Below are positions 23,026-30,376 of a DNA stretch of 33,480 nt, one piece after another. This DNA is from Spirochaetales bacterium (GTDB taxonomy: Bacteria; Spirochaetota; Spirochaetia; DSM-2461). Below the pieces are notes generated by a model. It was given only the letters and a program-made list of their open reading frames with translations. It did not search any database and had not been told where the DNA came from. Positions within the stretch are counted from its first letter, which is position 1. Every line of letters starts with the position of its first letter. The position numbers and the translations under genes are program-made. Where the stretch lies: positions 1 to 33,480 of the forward strand of contig JAFGPQ010000008.1 of the NCBI GenBank assembly GCA_016936115.1, written 5' to 3'.

Positions 23026-23275
23026 TTTTGAATTCTCCTTATCATAGGTTTTGTCTTGTATGACAAGCTACATGATAACAGCTCGTGGGTGATTGAAAAT
23101 ATAATAATTTGTTCATTATATATAAAATTCTTTCTTCCCCGATTCTGAATAGGCCGATTCATTAAAAACAAGAGGCCTAAATATAGTATCACTATAGTAC
23201 TACATTTTCACTTTTTTACGAGTTCCCGGGGAATTCTATTGACTCTTTCTTTTCTTAGGAGTACCGTATTTTTAC

Positions 23276-23362
23276 ATGAAAAACAAATCCGTAATCAACA
23301 GCATTATTATTTCTCTCATTCTTCTACTAGGGAGAGATCTTTGCAGAGAACGGTCGCTGTAA
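23276..23362 (+). CDS. leader peptide of the leu/ile operon attenuator (28 aa)
   Basis: ATG AAA AAC AAA TCC GTA ATC AAC AGC ATT ATT ATT TCT CTC ATT CTT CTA CTA GGG AGA GAT CTT TGC AGA GAA CGG TCG CTG TAA = MKNKSVINSIIISLILLLGRDLCRERSL. AGGAG at 23257-23261. 12/28 residues are Ile/Leu/Val; immediately upstream of an antiterminator/terminator. Missing from the supplied ORF track. Confidence 0.8.
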   Translation: MKNKSVINSIIISLILLLGRDLCRERSL

Positions 23363-23392
23363 CAGCGCTACACAGGTAAAGCACCCGTTCTC
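23346..23392 (+). promoter_or_regulatory. candidate antiterminator pairing of the leu/ile attenuator
   Basis: GAGAACGG (23346-23353) is perfectly complementary to CCGTTCTC (23385-23392), the 5' arm of the terminator. Confidence 0.72.
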
Positions 23393-23415
23393 GTTAGGAG
23401 GACGGGTTTTTTTTT
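23383..23415 (+). terminator. intrinsic terminator (attenuator) upstream of leuA
   Basis: ACCCGTTCTC-GTTAG-GAGGACGGGT then a T run 23407-23415: 10-bp stem with one G.U. Confidence 0.9.
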
Positions 23416-23542
23416 ACGTGTTCCAAAAGGCATCTGGTGCCGTATGCGTCGTTGGCCAGAGGAATGGTTAGTTTGATTGGATTTGTTAGTTAAGATGAAT
23501 AAAAACTCCGGCTGGGCCGGGGAAACATAGAAGGAGTATAGA

Positions 23543-25087
23543 ATGGATAAGGTATTGATTTTTGACACGACCCTTAGAGACGGGGAGCAGGCGCTGTCCT
23601 CCAGTCTTTCCGTAAAAGAGAAGATTGTCATTGCCCATGCCCTGGCCAAGCTCAATGTGGATATCATTGAAGCGGGCTTTCCTGTCAGTTCCCCCGGAGA
23701 CCTGGAGAGCGTGAGACAGATTGCCAATTCGGTTAAGGGCCCCATCGTGGCGGGACTCGCCCGGGCTGTGAGAAAAGATATCGACGCCTGTGCGAAAGCC
23801 CTGAAGGAGTGTCCCCGCCCCCGGATTCACACCTTCATCGCCACGTCGAACATGCACGTGGAGAGCAAGCTCAAGAAGGGTTACGATGAAGTAATCCAGA
23901 TGGGTGTGGATGCGGTGAGCTACGCGCGGAACTTCTGCGACGATGTGGAGTTCTCCTGCGAGGACGCGGGACGGACAGACCGGGACATGCTCTGCCGCAT
24001 CGTGGAAGCCACGATCAATGCGGGTGCGAAAACCATCAACATTCCCGATACGGTGGGCTACACCGTGGGCTACGAGTTCGGCGACATTATCAAGGACATC
24101 TTCAACCGGGTTCCCAATATAGATAAAGCGACCATTTCGGTGCACTGCCATAACGACCTGGGCCAGGCGGCGGCCAACTCCCTCATGGCCGTCCTGAACG
24201 GGGCCCGTCAGATAGAGTGTACCGTGAACGGCCTGGGCGAACGGGCGGGAAACTGCTCCATGGAAGAGGTTGTCATGGCCATGAGAACACGAAAGGACAT
24301 TTTCGGCATAGACACGGGCATCGTCTCCGAGGAGATCTCCCATACCAGCCGCCTTGTCAGCAAAATCTGCAATGTTCCGGTCCAGCCCAACAAAGCGATC
24401 GTGGGCGCCACCGCTTTCGCCCACTCCTCCGGCATCCATCAGGATGGGGTGCTCAAGAACCGGAGCAACTACGAGATCATGACCCCCGAGTCGGTGGGCC
24501 TCTCGGCGAATCAGTTCCACCTGACCAGCCGCTCGGGACGGCATATCATCAAGCACCGTCTGAGCCTGCTCGGCTACGAGGAGGATTCCTACGATCTGGA
24601 CCAGTTCTACGATAAGTTCCTGGCCCTGGCCGACAAGAAGGGAACCGTTTACGATGACGACCTGGAAGCGATGATGGAGATCGACGGGGACGAGGCGGAC
24701 CGGTACAAGATGGTCTACCTGAACACCACCTCAGGGACCGGCTCCATCCCCTCGGCCACGGTGAAGATTCACGACAACGCCGCTTCCGATGCGGAACCGA
24801 TCCAGGAAGCGGCCACCGGAGACGGTCCGGTGGATGCGGCCTGTAAGGCGATCGACCGGGCGGTTGGCTTCTCCATCAAGATGGTGGACTACGCCCTCAC
24901 CGGACTGACCGGCGGCAAGAACGCCCTGGGCGAGGTGAAGATCATCGCCGAGCACAAGGAACGCCGCTACCACGGGCAGGGCTCCAGCACGGACATAGTG
25001 GAAGCCTCCGCCCTGGCTTATATGAACGTAATCAACAAAGTCGCCCGCATGGAGGGCATAGAGAAAATGAAGGAGATGAAAGCATAA
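23543..25087 (+). CDS. leuA: 2-isopropylmalate synthase
   Basis: 514 aa; FDTTLRDGEQALSSSLSVKEKIVIAHALAKLNVDIIEAGFPVSSPGD, HCHNDLGQAAANSLMAVLNGARQIECTVNGLGERAGN; C-terminal LeuA regulatory domain. SD AAGGAG. Confidence 0.97.
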   Translation: MDKVLIFDTTLRDGEQALSSSLSVKEKIVIAHALAKLNVDIIEAGFPVSSPGDLESVRQIANSVKGPIVAGLARAVRKDIDACAKALKECPRPRIHTFIATSNMHVESKLKKGYDEVIQMGVDAVSYARNFCDDVEFSCEDAGRTDRDMLCRIVEATINAGAKTINIPDTVGYTVGYEFGDIIKDIFNRVPNIDKATISVHCHNDLGQAAANSLMAVLNGARQIECTVNGLGERAGNCSMEEVVMAMRTRKDIFGIDTGIVSEEISHTSRLVSKICNVPVQPNKAIVGATAFAHSSGIHQDGVLKNRSNYEIMTPESVGLSANQFHLTSRSGRHIIKHRLSLLGYEEDSYDLDQFYDKFLALADKKGTVYDDDLEAMMEIDGDEADRYKMVYLNTTSGTGSIPSATVKIHDNAASDAEPIQEAATGDGPVDAACKAIDRAVGFSIKMVDYALTGLTGGKNALGEVKIIAEHKERRYHGQGSSTDIVEASALAYMNVINKVARMEGIEKMKEMKA

Positions 25088-26370
25088 TGGGCAAAACCTT
25101 AGTAGAGAAGATTTTTGAATCCCATCTGGTGGACAACCCCTGCGAGGGCGTTCACGTTCTGAATCTGGATCGGGTATTCTGTCATGAGATCACCACCCCC
25201 CCCGCCATTCTGGACCTTAAGAGACGGGACAAGTACCGGGTATTCGATCCGGACAAGATCAAGGCGGTTATCGACCATGTCACCCCCGCCAAGGACAGCC
25301 TCACCGCCACCCAGGGGAAGATCCTCCGGGACTGGGCGAAGGATATGGGCATCAAGGATTACTTTGACATCGGACGGAACGGGGTCTGCCACGCCATATT
25401 CCCCGAGAAGGGTTTTGTCCGCCCCGGCTTTACGGTCATCATGGGAGACTCCCACACCTGTACCCACGGCGCTTTCGGCGCTTTTGCCGCCGGGGTGGGC
25501 ACCACGGATCTGGAAGTGGGTATCCTCAAGGGAATCTGCGCTTTCAAATCTCCGGAAACAACGAAAATAACCATTACCGGAACCCCCGCCAAGGGAGTTT
25601 ACGCCAAGGACGTGATCCTCTCCGTCATCAAGATGATGACCACCAACGGGGTGACCAACCGGGTCGCCGAGTTCCGGGGCGATTTCGTGGACAACCTGGG
25701 CATGGACGGACGTCTCACCCTGTGTAACATGGCCGTGGAAATGGGCGCCACCAGCGGCGTCTGCCTCCCCGACATGACCACCGTGGAGTACCTCTGGCCC
25801 TTTATCGCCGGGGACTACGCCTCCAAGGAAGAGGCCCTGGCCGACTTCGCCAAATGGCGCAGCGACGACGATGCGGTCTATGCGGACGAGCGGACCATCG
25901 ACATAAGCAAGCTCGTTCCCCAGGTGACCGACGAATACCGCCCCGATGTGGTCAAGGACATCACCGAAATGGAAGGCAGGGAACTGCATCAGATCTACCT
26001 GGGCTCCTGTACCAACGGCCGCCTGGAAGACCTGGCCATCGCCGCGGGCATCCTCAAGGGAAAGAAAGTGGCCGACAACGTGCGCATGATCGTCTCCCCC
26101 GCCACTCCCAAGATCTACTCCGACGCCCTGGAAGCGGGATACGTGAAAATCTTCATGGACGCCGGCGCCTGTCTGACCAACCCCACCTGCGGCGCCTGTC
26201 TGGGTATGTCCAACGGGGTTCTGGCCGAAGGGGAAGCTGCCGCAGCCACCACGAACAGAAACTTCAACGGCCGCATGGGCAAGGGGGGCATGGTTCACCT
26301 GTGCAGCCCCGCCACCGCCGCCGCCTCGGCCATCGAGGGCAAACTGACCGATCCCAGGAGGTACATGTAA
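25087..26370 (+). CDS. leuC: 3-isopropylmalate dehydratase large subunit
   Basis: 427 aa; GDSHTCTHGAFGAFAAGVGTTDLE, GSCTNGRLEDLAIAAGILKGKKV, CLTNPTCGACLGMSNGVLAEGE (Fe-S ligands). Confidence 0.96.
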   Translation: MGKTLVEKIFESHLVDNPCEGVHVLNLDRVFCHEITTPPAILDLKRRDKYRVFDPDKIKAVIDHVTPAKDSLTATQGKILRDWAKDMGIKDYFDIGRNGVCHAIFPEKGFVRPGFTVIMGDSHTCTHGAFGAFAAGVGTTDLEVGILKGICAFKSPETTKITITGTPAKGVYAKDVILSVIKMMTTNGVTNRVAEFRGDFVDNLGMDGRLTLCNMAVEMGATSGVCLPDMTTVEYLWPFIAGDYASKEEALADFAKWRSDDDAVYADERTIDISKLVPQVTDEYRPDVVKDITEMEGRELHQIYLGSCTNGRLEDLAIAAGILKGKKVADNVRMIVSPATPKIYSDALEAGYVKIFMDAGACLTNPTCGACLGMSNGVLAEGEAAAATTNRNFNGRMGKGGMVHLCSPATAAASAIEGKLTDPRRYM

Positions 26371-26906
26371 TGAAAAATTTCGGAGGACAGATCCTCTTTC
26401 TGGACAGAAGCGACATCAATACGGATGAAATCATACCCGCCAAGTACCTGACCGAAGTAGAAAGAGTCGCCATGGGCCCCCACCTTCTGGAGGACCTGAA
26501 GATGGAAGGATTTACCCACATGAGCCAGCCCATGAAGGACTCCACGGTCATTTTGTCCCGGGACAACTTCGGCTGCGGTTCCAGCCGGGAACACGCCCCC
26601 TGGGCCCTGGAAGAGAACGGCTACACCGTGGTCATCGCCCCCAACTTCGCCCGGATTTTCCGGGGGAATATGTATAATAACGGCTGCATGGCCATCGAGC
26701 TGAAGGAAGAGGAGATCGATGAGATTTTCGCTCTCTCCTCCGGTCCCGAGACCACCGGTGTCTCCGCCAGCGTGGATGTGGATGCCCAGACAGTGAGCGT
26801 GAAGAGCTCCAAGGGAGAGAAAACCTACTCCTTTACCCTCTCCAGCTATGACAAGGATCTGGTCATGGCCGGGGGCTGGCTGGAATATGCGGACGCCAAG
26901 TACTGA
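26370..26906 (+). CDS. leuD: 3-isopropylmalate dehydratase small subunit
   Basis: 178 aa from ATG 26370: MKNFGGQILFLDRSDINTDEIIPAKYL...NFGCGSSREHAPWAL...IFRGNMYNNG. The longer ORF from 25854 is read-through of an alternative frame over leuC. Confidence 0.96.
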   Translation: MKNFGGQILFLDRSDINTDEIIPAKYLTEVERVAMGPHLLEDLKMEGFTHMSQPMKDSTVILSRDNFGCGSSREHAPWALEENGYTVVIAPNFARIFRGNMYNNGCMAIELKEEEIDEIFALSSGPETTGVSASVDVDAQTVSVKSSKGEKTYSFTLSSYDKDLVMAGGWLEYADAKY

Positions 26907-27660
26907 TTGGAACCCCTCTCTTTATCTGAAATACGGTAGGGAGAGGCTCCAGCCCACCGTCGATCTGGCCTCACGGATTGACCTGGAAGCGCCGAATCGG
27001 ATTATCGATATCGGCTGCGGTCCCGGAAACAGCACCTCTGTTCTGCGGGGACGCTGGCCGGAAGCGGAAATCACCGGACTGGACAACTCCCCCGCCATGA
27101 TCGAGCGCGCCCGGCAGAGCGGCATTGAAGCGGACTGGATCATTGCCGACGCCTCGACTGCCCAGTTTCCCGGGGAATGGGATCTGATCTTCTCCAACGC
27201 GGCCTACCAGTGGATGGCGGGCCAGTCGGAACTGTTCAGCAAACTCAGGTCCAATCTGATGCCGAACGGTATCATGGCGGCTCAGATTCCCCTCTTTCGG
27301 GAGATGCCCATGAGCGGTGTCATCAGCGAAGAAGCGATTCAGCCGCGCTGGAATTTCGGCGCCGGTAACGGCCATCTTATGATTCACAGCCGGGAGGAGT
27401 ACTATGATATCCTCTCCGGGCTTTTCGAGCATGTGGATCTGTGGGTGACCGATTACATCCATGTGATGCCATCCCATGAAGCGATTCTGGAAATGATGAG
27501 AAGCACCGCCCTGATGCCCTTTCTGGCTCAGCTTGAGTTTGAAGAGGACAGAAGGGCCTACGAAAAGGAGATCCTGAAGAGAATAGGGCGGGAATATCCC
27601 GCCCGGGGGAACGGCAAGGTCCTCTTTCCCTTCAGACGATTATTTTTTATAGCGAAATAA
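26887..27660 (+). CDS. tam: trans-aconitate 2-methyltransferase-like SAM methyltransferase
   Basis: MRTPSTDWNPSLYLKYGRERLQPTVDLASRI...IDIGCGPGNSTSVLRGRWPEAEITGLDNSPAMIERA...YYDILSG...VMPSHEAI...YPARGNGKVLFPFRRLFFIAK closely matches recalled E. coli Tam landmarks. Starts 20 nt inside leuD. Confidence 0.88.
   Translation: MRTPSTDWNPSLYLKYGRERLQPTVDLASRIDLEAPNRIIDIGCGPGNSTSVLRGRWPEAEITGLDNSPAMIERARQSGIEADWIIADASTAQFPGEWDLIFSNAAYQWMAGQSELFSKLRSNLMPNGIMAAQIPLFREMPMSGVISEEAIQPRWNFGAGNGHLMIHSREEYYDILSGLFEHVDLWVTDYIHVMPSHEAILEMMRSTALMPFLAQLEFEEDRRAYEKEILKRIGREYPARGNGKVLFPFRRLFFIAK

Positions 27661-30376
<2,716 letters not shown>

Follow-up and report, generated by a model that had tools for sequence, protein, structure and literature searches.

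A leader-peptide attenuator candidate with isoleucine and leucine control codons before a spirochaete leuA-cimA operon

The window analysed here is a stretch of 33,480 nucleotides from a Spirochaetales bacterium (contig C199 of an assembly of 3.93 Mb that is 91% complete), and it carries a leucine and isoleucine operon behind a short leader. By LeuA identity, the nearest named relatives are Spirochaetaceae SZUA-368 (95%) and Spirochaetales bin_42 (86%). The gene order 3' of the leader is leuA-leuC-leuD-methyltransferase-like-leuB-cimA, extending to position 30376. The features of the locus are as follows.

23239..23244, forward strand: TTGACT, the -35 box of the promoter for the leader, 31 nt before the leader ATG; the congener box reads TTGATC or TTGACC
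23262..23267, forward strand: -10 box TACCGT, separated by 17 nt from the -35 box and by 8 nt from the ATG; congeners have TACCGT and TAGCTT at 7-8 nt
23276..23362, forward strand: leader peptide ORF MKNKSVINSIIISLILLLGRDLCRERSL, 28 residues, stop included in the coordinates (ATG 23276, TAA 23360-23362); orthologues in L035 and L036
23303..23329, forward strand: mixed Ile/Leu control block ATT ATT ATT TCT CTC ATT CTT CTA CTA, in frame (sequence; class-wide comparison)
23309..23338, forward strand: early hairpin predicted in the control region by the minimum-free-energy fold, arms 23309-23317 and 23330-23338
23346..23353, forward strand: strand 2, the 5' strand of the antiterminator, GAGAACGG, within the ORF just 5' of the stop and complementary to 23385-23392
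23383..23416, forward strand: intrinsic terminator with its stem at 23383-23407 and a T tract behind it (fold; covarying stem)
23385..23392, forward strand: strand 3, CCGTTCTC, common to the antiterminator and the terminator, of which it is the 5' arm (folding, duplex energy)
23543..25087, forward strand: leuA, 2-isopropylmalate synthase with LeuA_dimer regulatory domain (TIGR00973, 735 bits)
25087..26370, forward strand: leuC, aconitase-family large subunit (profile match)
26370..26906, forward strand: leuD, small subunit (LeuD domain from residue 173 of an ORF starting at 25854)
26848..27660, forward strand: methyltransferase, closest to trans-aconitate 2-methyltransferase (match below the curated cut-off)
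27664..28800, forward strand: leuB, 3-isopropylmalate dehydrogenase (TIGR00169)
28793..30376, forward strand: cimA, citramalate synthase with LeuA_dimer domain (TIGR00977, 699 bits, cut-off 450)

The profile matches (TIGR00973, TIGR00169, TIGR00977) agree with a preliminary description of this DNA, in which the operon encodes LeuA and CimA, with LeuC, LeuD and LeuB common to both routes. The methyltransferase gene between leuD and leuB is also found in a congener (L158, 5041-5847, with leuA oriented forward), and its product may act on an aconitate-like intermediate, by repair or detoxification. The window LeuA shares 57-59% identity with Enterobacterales LeuA and 62% with one distant member of the class, but just ~45% with another genus of its own family, which suggests horizontal transfer of leuA. 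LeuA matches in four genomes (G092, G150, G114, G176) are reported with one internal TGA, which may reflect a match overrunning the gene end or a real TGA. No attenuator was found 5' of the source genome's own ilvBN.

The anatomy of the leader can be read directly from the sequence. The control block lies exactly where it had been described, with the same codon order and in frame with both the ATG and the TAA, and a recount of the leader codons returned the same 5 Ile, 6 Leu and 1 Val. The ORF, its frame, the position of its stop and the Ile/Leu block are all kept in two congeners (L035, L036), whose leaders MKGKSVISSITISLIILLGRDMCGERSL and MNNTPNFAITIITLFILLLGKEICGERSL differ in sequence while retaining the block and the three strands. 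The locus thus presents a short ORF that looks translated and holds a series of codons for products of the operon, as in ribosome-mediated attenuators, and its control codons stand for two end products of one operon, as in multivalent ones.

A survey of the class allowed these features to be viewed in a wider context. LeuA was searched for in 317 genomes, mostly metagenome assemblies; 80 loci were taken and the 650 bp 5' of leuA scanned. Short ORFs rich in Ile, Leu and Val codons precede 23 of 24 leuA-upstream terminators, as against 4 of 61 other terminators at the same loci. Many Spirochaetia leuA loci had no detectable terminator within the 650 bp, indicating that the attenuator is widespread rather than universal. 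The same pipeline applied to 78 Enterobacterales loci returned a leader and terminator in 76, dominated by leucine (482 Leu, 106 Ile, 119 Val). The comparison set consisted of 58 terminator-linked leaders, grouped by their downstream genes.

Folding of the leader RNA points to two mutually exclusive structures. An RNA starting past the leader stop adopts the terminator fold (-17.9 kcal/mol, z -4.7), and one truncated before the 3' arm of the terminator adopts the antiterminator fold (-16.4 kcal/mol). The duplex of strands 2 and 3 has a calculated energy of -16.1 kcal/mol, compared with -10.4 +/- 2.4 kcal/mol in shuffles (p 0.02). In an alignment of 40 relatives, 8 of the 10 pairs of the terminator stem display changes on both sides. 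With the alignment fixed in a single register, covariation of the antiterminator was no better than in a column-shuffle control, the register varying between families; hence, the antiterminator is counted as supported sequence by sequence, with 34 of 58 leaders beating shuffled sequence at p<0.05 and 24 of 58 lying above that value. The terminator stands between the leader ORF and the first gene, 20 nt past the stop, and the antiterminator that excludes it is placed where a ribosome at the stop could cover it. In the window, strand 2 ends 9 nt before the end of the ORF, and 16 nt lie between the last control codon and strand 2. Across the set, strand 2 lies across or just before the stop, overlapping the ORF end, in 56 of 58 leaders.

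These structures could also belong to an ORF that senses nothing, in front of a plain terminator or of another RNA switch such as a T-box, a riboswitch or the actinobacterial LEU element. In other phyla, switches of this kind often lie 5' of leu and ilv genes (PMC1262725; see also PMC2494555). However, the Rfam search (Leu_leader, T-box, other cis-regulators) gave no family at or above cut-off anywhere in the window, and the ORF, the position of its stop and the block are kept in relatives. The LEU element works through a leucine-codon run that pairs with the leuA Shine-Dalgarno, with a pseudoknot, whereas in the window the intrinsic terminator is strong and leuA has a separate Shine-Dalgarno of its own. 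Moreover, codon content predicts gene content, as described below, which a translation-independent switch does not explain. We therefore regard a non-sensing ORF as extremely unlikely.

The position of the promoter would place the transcription start at or beside the leader ATG. A TTGAC box ending 26-36 nt 5' of the start codon occurs in 45 of 58 leaders, where 0.54 would be expected by shuffling; allowing any in-frame ATG raises the count to 51 of 58. In Enterobacterales leaders, in contrast, the TTGAC box is found at this distance in 0 of 76. A Shine-Dalgarno core precedes just 3 of the 58 leaders, compared with 52 of 58 of the first structural genes downstream. The window itself has an AGGAG at 23257-23261, 14 nt from the ATG, which is a possible, badly spaced Shine-Dalgarno and counts against a leaderless reading. 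Taken together, promoter placement and the lack of a Shine-Dalgarno suggest that most of these leaders are probably leaderless, with transcription beginning at or beside the start codon, and that the window ORF is probably translated without a Shine-Dalgarno.

Just 5' of the leader promoter, all three congeners display a palindromic AGTACT-type motif (23180-23205 in the window; about 7726-7746 in L035). The L035 version is a perfect inverted repeat, GCAGTACTATCCTAGTACTGC. This motif may serve as an operator, adding a further level of control.

Grouping the leaders by downstream genes reveals a close relation between control codons and operon content. Ahead of stand-alone cimA (16 leaders, 11 families), there are 88 Ile and 26 Leu codons, with a mean Leu/(Ile+Leu) of 0.22, and Ile codons outnumber Leu codons in all 16. 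At the other end, leuA without cimA, a small class (4 leaders, 3 families), is preceded by 4 Ile and 34 Leu codons, a mean Leu share of 0.91, and none of the four has as many Ile as Leu codons. Intermediate values are found for leuA followed by cimA (21 leaders, 8 families; 106 Ile, 104 Leu, mean Leu share 0.51) and for ilvB followed by leuA (17 leaders, 8 families; 97 Ile, 87 Leu, 27 Val, Leu share 0.47), the latter class mostly with cimA and not uniform, as G216, G232 and G201, of one genus, have no cimA nearby. In G002, G121 and G284 the contig stops short of the gene that follows leuA, and adjacency of cimA is assumed. The preliminary description would have been contradicted by an Ile block persisting in relatives without cimA in the operon; the block is absent there, with Leu-dominated leaders in G039, G013, G166 and G076, and the best 12-residue block of the four leuA-without-cimA leaders amounts to 31 Leu and 1 Ile. 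Over 30 family-class means, Leu share correlates with gene content at r 0.88 (permutation p<=5e-6), the statistics being at family level only, with anonymous family labels; related genomes are non-independent.

This non-independence is also what would favour attributing the relation to common ancestry or base composition, with no selection for sensing. However, six families contain contrasting operon types, and these differ in the predicted direction (label shuffle inside families, p<=1e-5). Within single genomes the contrast is equally visible. In G039, where leuA and cimA lie apart, the leuA leader is Leu-only, MNAAQSILSLLLLTLLLEKPFQHGVRERTCRS, and the cimA leader is Ile-rich, MNMTVVSPIAIIIGIRSLIWGR; G063, of the same family, has leuA and cimA together behind MSSSTLGIIIILLTADYAARRG. 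In G076 the leader of the ilvB-leuA-cimA operon is of the Ile/Val kind, AIINIIVVVVIL, while that of a second leuA is a Leu leader, QLLLALLGLL. Such two-leader genomes, along with the contrast between G039 and G063, exclude base composition as the cause, and the chassis common to these leaders (see below) stays constant while the codons change. A by-product of ancestry or composition is thus very unlikely, and the comparison instead supports the earlier proposal that the block looks tuned to both end products.

Three of the four Leu-only leaders (L161, L232, L238) are followed by a short LeuA (about 380-390 aa). Of these, the L161 protein was scanned and lacks the LeuA_dimer feedback domain, and attenuation may there take the place of feedback inhibition.

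Codon choice within the block offers a further level of detail. The contrast drawn earlier between the tandem CTA and the CTG-rich neighbouring genes is borne out by the window codon counts: across 21 genes of the window, 20 out of 733 Leu codons are CTA (2.7%) and 47.5% are CTG, and in the window leuA, leuC, leuB and cimA CTA accounts for 2 of 138, with CTG at 57%. In leaders the CTA share of Leu codons is 29%, versus 3% in the relatives' leuA and cimA, and TTA is not enriched. This pattern fits the ranking of CUA as the most sensitive and UUA as an insensitive codon of the leu attenuator, which PMC1183508 gives from theory and a cited Salmonella experiment. Whether both CTA and ATT are rare had been posed as a check: CTA is, and ATT, at 28% of Ile codons, is not, so that rarity is ruled out as the reason for ATT. 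ATT is nonetheless enriched in leaders (59% vs 30%). One tRNA-Leu(TAG) gene was found in the source assembly; a tRNA-Ile(GAT) gene is missing from it, the assembly itself being incomplete (91%).

These codon statistics raise the alternative that leucine alone is sensed, through the CTA pair beside strand 2, with the Ile codons acting as hydrophobic filler or as AT-rich unstructured RNA. CTA is the sole strikingly rare codon of the block, ATT being ordinary, and the CTA pair comprises the control codons nearest strand 2. A precedent exists in the Leu-rich ilv-leu leader of Staphylococcus aureus, which likewise lies before a branched-chain operon and contains three Ile codons but is described as Leu-responsive, Ile acting mainly through CodY (PMC5794164). 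For S. aureus, though, there is no series of leaders following gene content, whereas in Spirochaetia the Ile codons vanish without cimA and dominate with cimA alone. The same holds within G039 and within families, contrasts in which base composition is controlled for. Leucine-only sensing is hence improbable, and we favor a sensor with two inputs.

As a check on loci chosen independently of their codons, we built a covariance model from 40 attenuators, each taken from 18 nt ahead of the stop through the T tract so that the block was left out, and searched it against 148 genomes. The known cases were recovered, along with new loci. At ilvB without leuA or cimA nearby (L342, L347, L330; three genomes of one family, the contig in one ending inside ilvB), the leaders are valine leaders, MVKALVVVLVVVRGMR, SVLVVVVVVARGG and VPVVVVVVVVVIVLGG, in which 29 of 38 Ile, Leu and Val codons are Val, with up to nine consecutively. 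At loci with ilvB and cimA the leaders are rich in Ile (33 Ile, 18 Leu, 2 Val), and three loci of type-II leuA, assigned by TIGR00970/PRK03739 in one and by sequence likeness in two, have Leu leaders (16 of 18), as do the type-I leuA loci without cimA. Among 12 model-recovered leaders, none has a Shine-Dalgarno and 9 have the TTGAC box at 29-32 nt. Matches L305-L308 in the source genome are ordinary gene-end terminators with no branched-chain leaders, and weak matches in relatives (L344, L349-L352, L355, L358-L361) gave no convincing leaders.

The leader terminators also share a motif, CCGYYYYY, present in 51 of 58 and in just 4 of 95 control terminators. The four Leu-only leaders of type-I leuA all fall within the seven that do not have it, and may have a separate origin. 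From these features it appears likely that a leaderless chassis, made up of a TTGACA promoter, strand 2 across the stop and a CCGYYYYY terminator, is widespread in Spirochaetia and was reused before leuA, cimA, ilvB, ilvD and type-II leuA, with the control codons changing to Leu, Ile, Val or a mix of these each time operons joined or split. The preliminary description was silent on both the leaderless layout and this common chassis.

Taking the evidence together, the element is very probably a transcription attenuator of the ribosome-mediated, leader-peptide type that takes two inputs, leucine and isoleucine. Transcription would start at or beside the leader ATG, with the ribosome trailing the polymerase. 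Upon scarcity of charged tRNA-Leu or tRNA-Ile, the ribosome would stall in the control block and leave strand 2 (23346-23353) free to pair with strand 3 (23385-23392), so that no terminator forms and leuACD, the methyltransferase gene, leuB and cimA are transcribed. When both amino acids are plentiful, the ribosome would reach the stop and cover strand 2, allowing the terminator to form. These two ribosome positions are predicted from known ribosome footprints and the 16-nt gap. Dual sensing would suit the operon because it makes both products: LeuA commits carbon to leucine and CimA to isoleucine, while LeuB, LeuC and LeuD serve both.

The attenuation mechanism itself is classical; what sets this form apart is the phylum, the link to citramalate, the way control codons are exchanged from leader to leader, and the probable leaderless layout. 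The leuL leader of E. coli and Salmonella (Rfam Leu_leader) similarly has an ORF ending just 5' of the terminator, an alternative antiterminator and tandem CTA; the likeness to E. coli noted earlier holds, as leuL of an E. coli genome reads CTA CTA CTA CTA. That leu operon, however, senses leucine and contains no cimA, and the window element has no Rfam match. In the enterobacterial ilvGMEDA and ilvBN attenuators, a single leader has codons for several of the amino acids that the operon makes. Both operons, listed in PMC1183508, carry ilv genes, whereas in the window Ile sensing would be tied to citramalate synthase; in Spirochaetia, moreover, Val-only, Ile-only, Leu-only and mixed leaders occur side by side.

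Leaderless counterparts are known from other phyla and pathways. In Corynebacterium glutamicum ilvBNC, the start site and the start codon of the leader are one nucleotide apart (PMC11857589), and that leader likewise has branched-chain codons, but it belongs to a different phylum and operon and is valine-led, MTIIRLVVVTARRLP. The Sinorhizobium meliloti trpL transcript begins at the leader ATG (PMC7298713), but it senses tryptophan, and trans-acting roles of peptide and RNA are described for peTrpL. A 2010 survey found such attenuators only in Proteobacteria, Actinobacteria and, newly, Firmicutes (PMC2965389), and in the open-licence literature we found no paper on leader-peptide attenuators of spirochaete amino-acid operons.

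For the class, these leaders suggest a simple rule: where the genes share an operon, the sensor carries codons for both amino acids, and where they lie apart, each sensor has those for its own. Spirochaetia thus offer many natural replicates for studying how regulatory input changes when operons fuse or split. The leaders would also predict downstream function, an Ile leader pointing to citramalate synthase and a Leu leader to isopropylmalate synthase, a distinction often mistaken from sequence alone.
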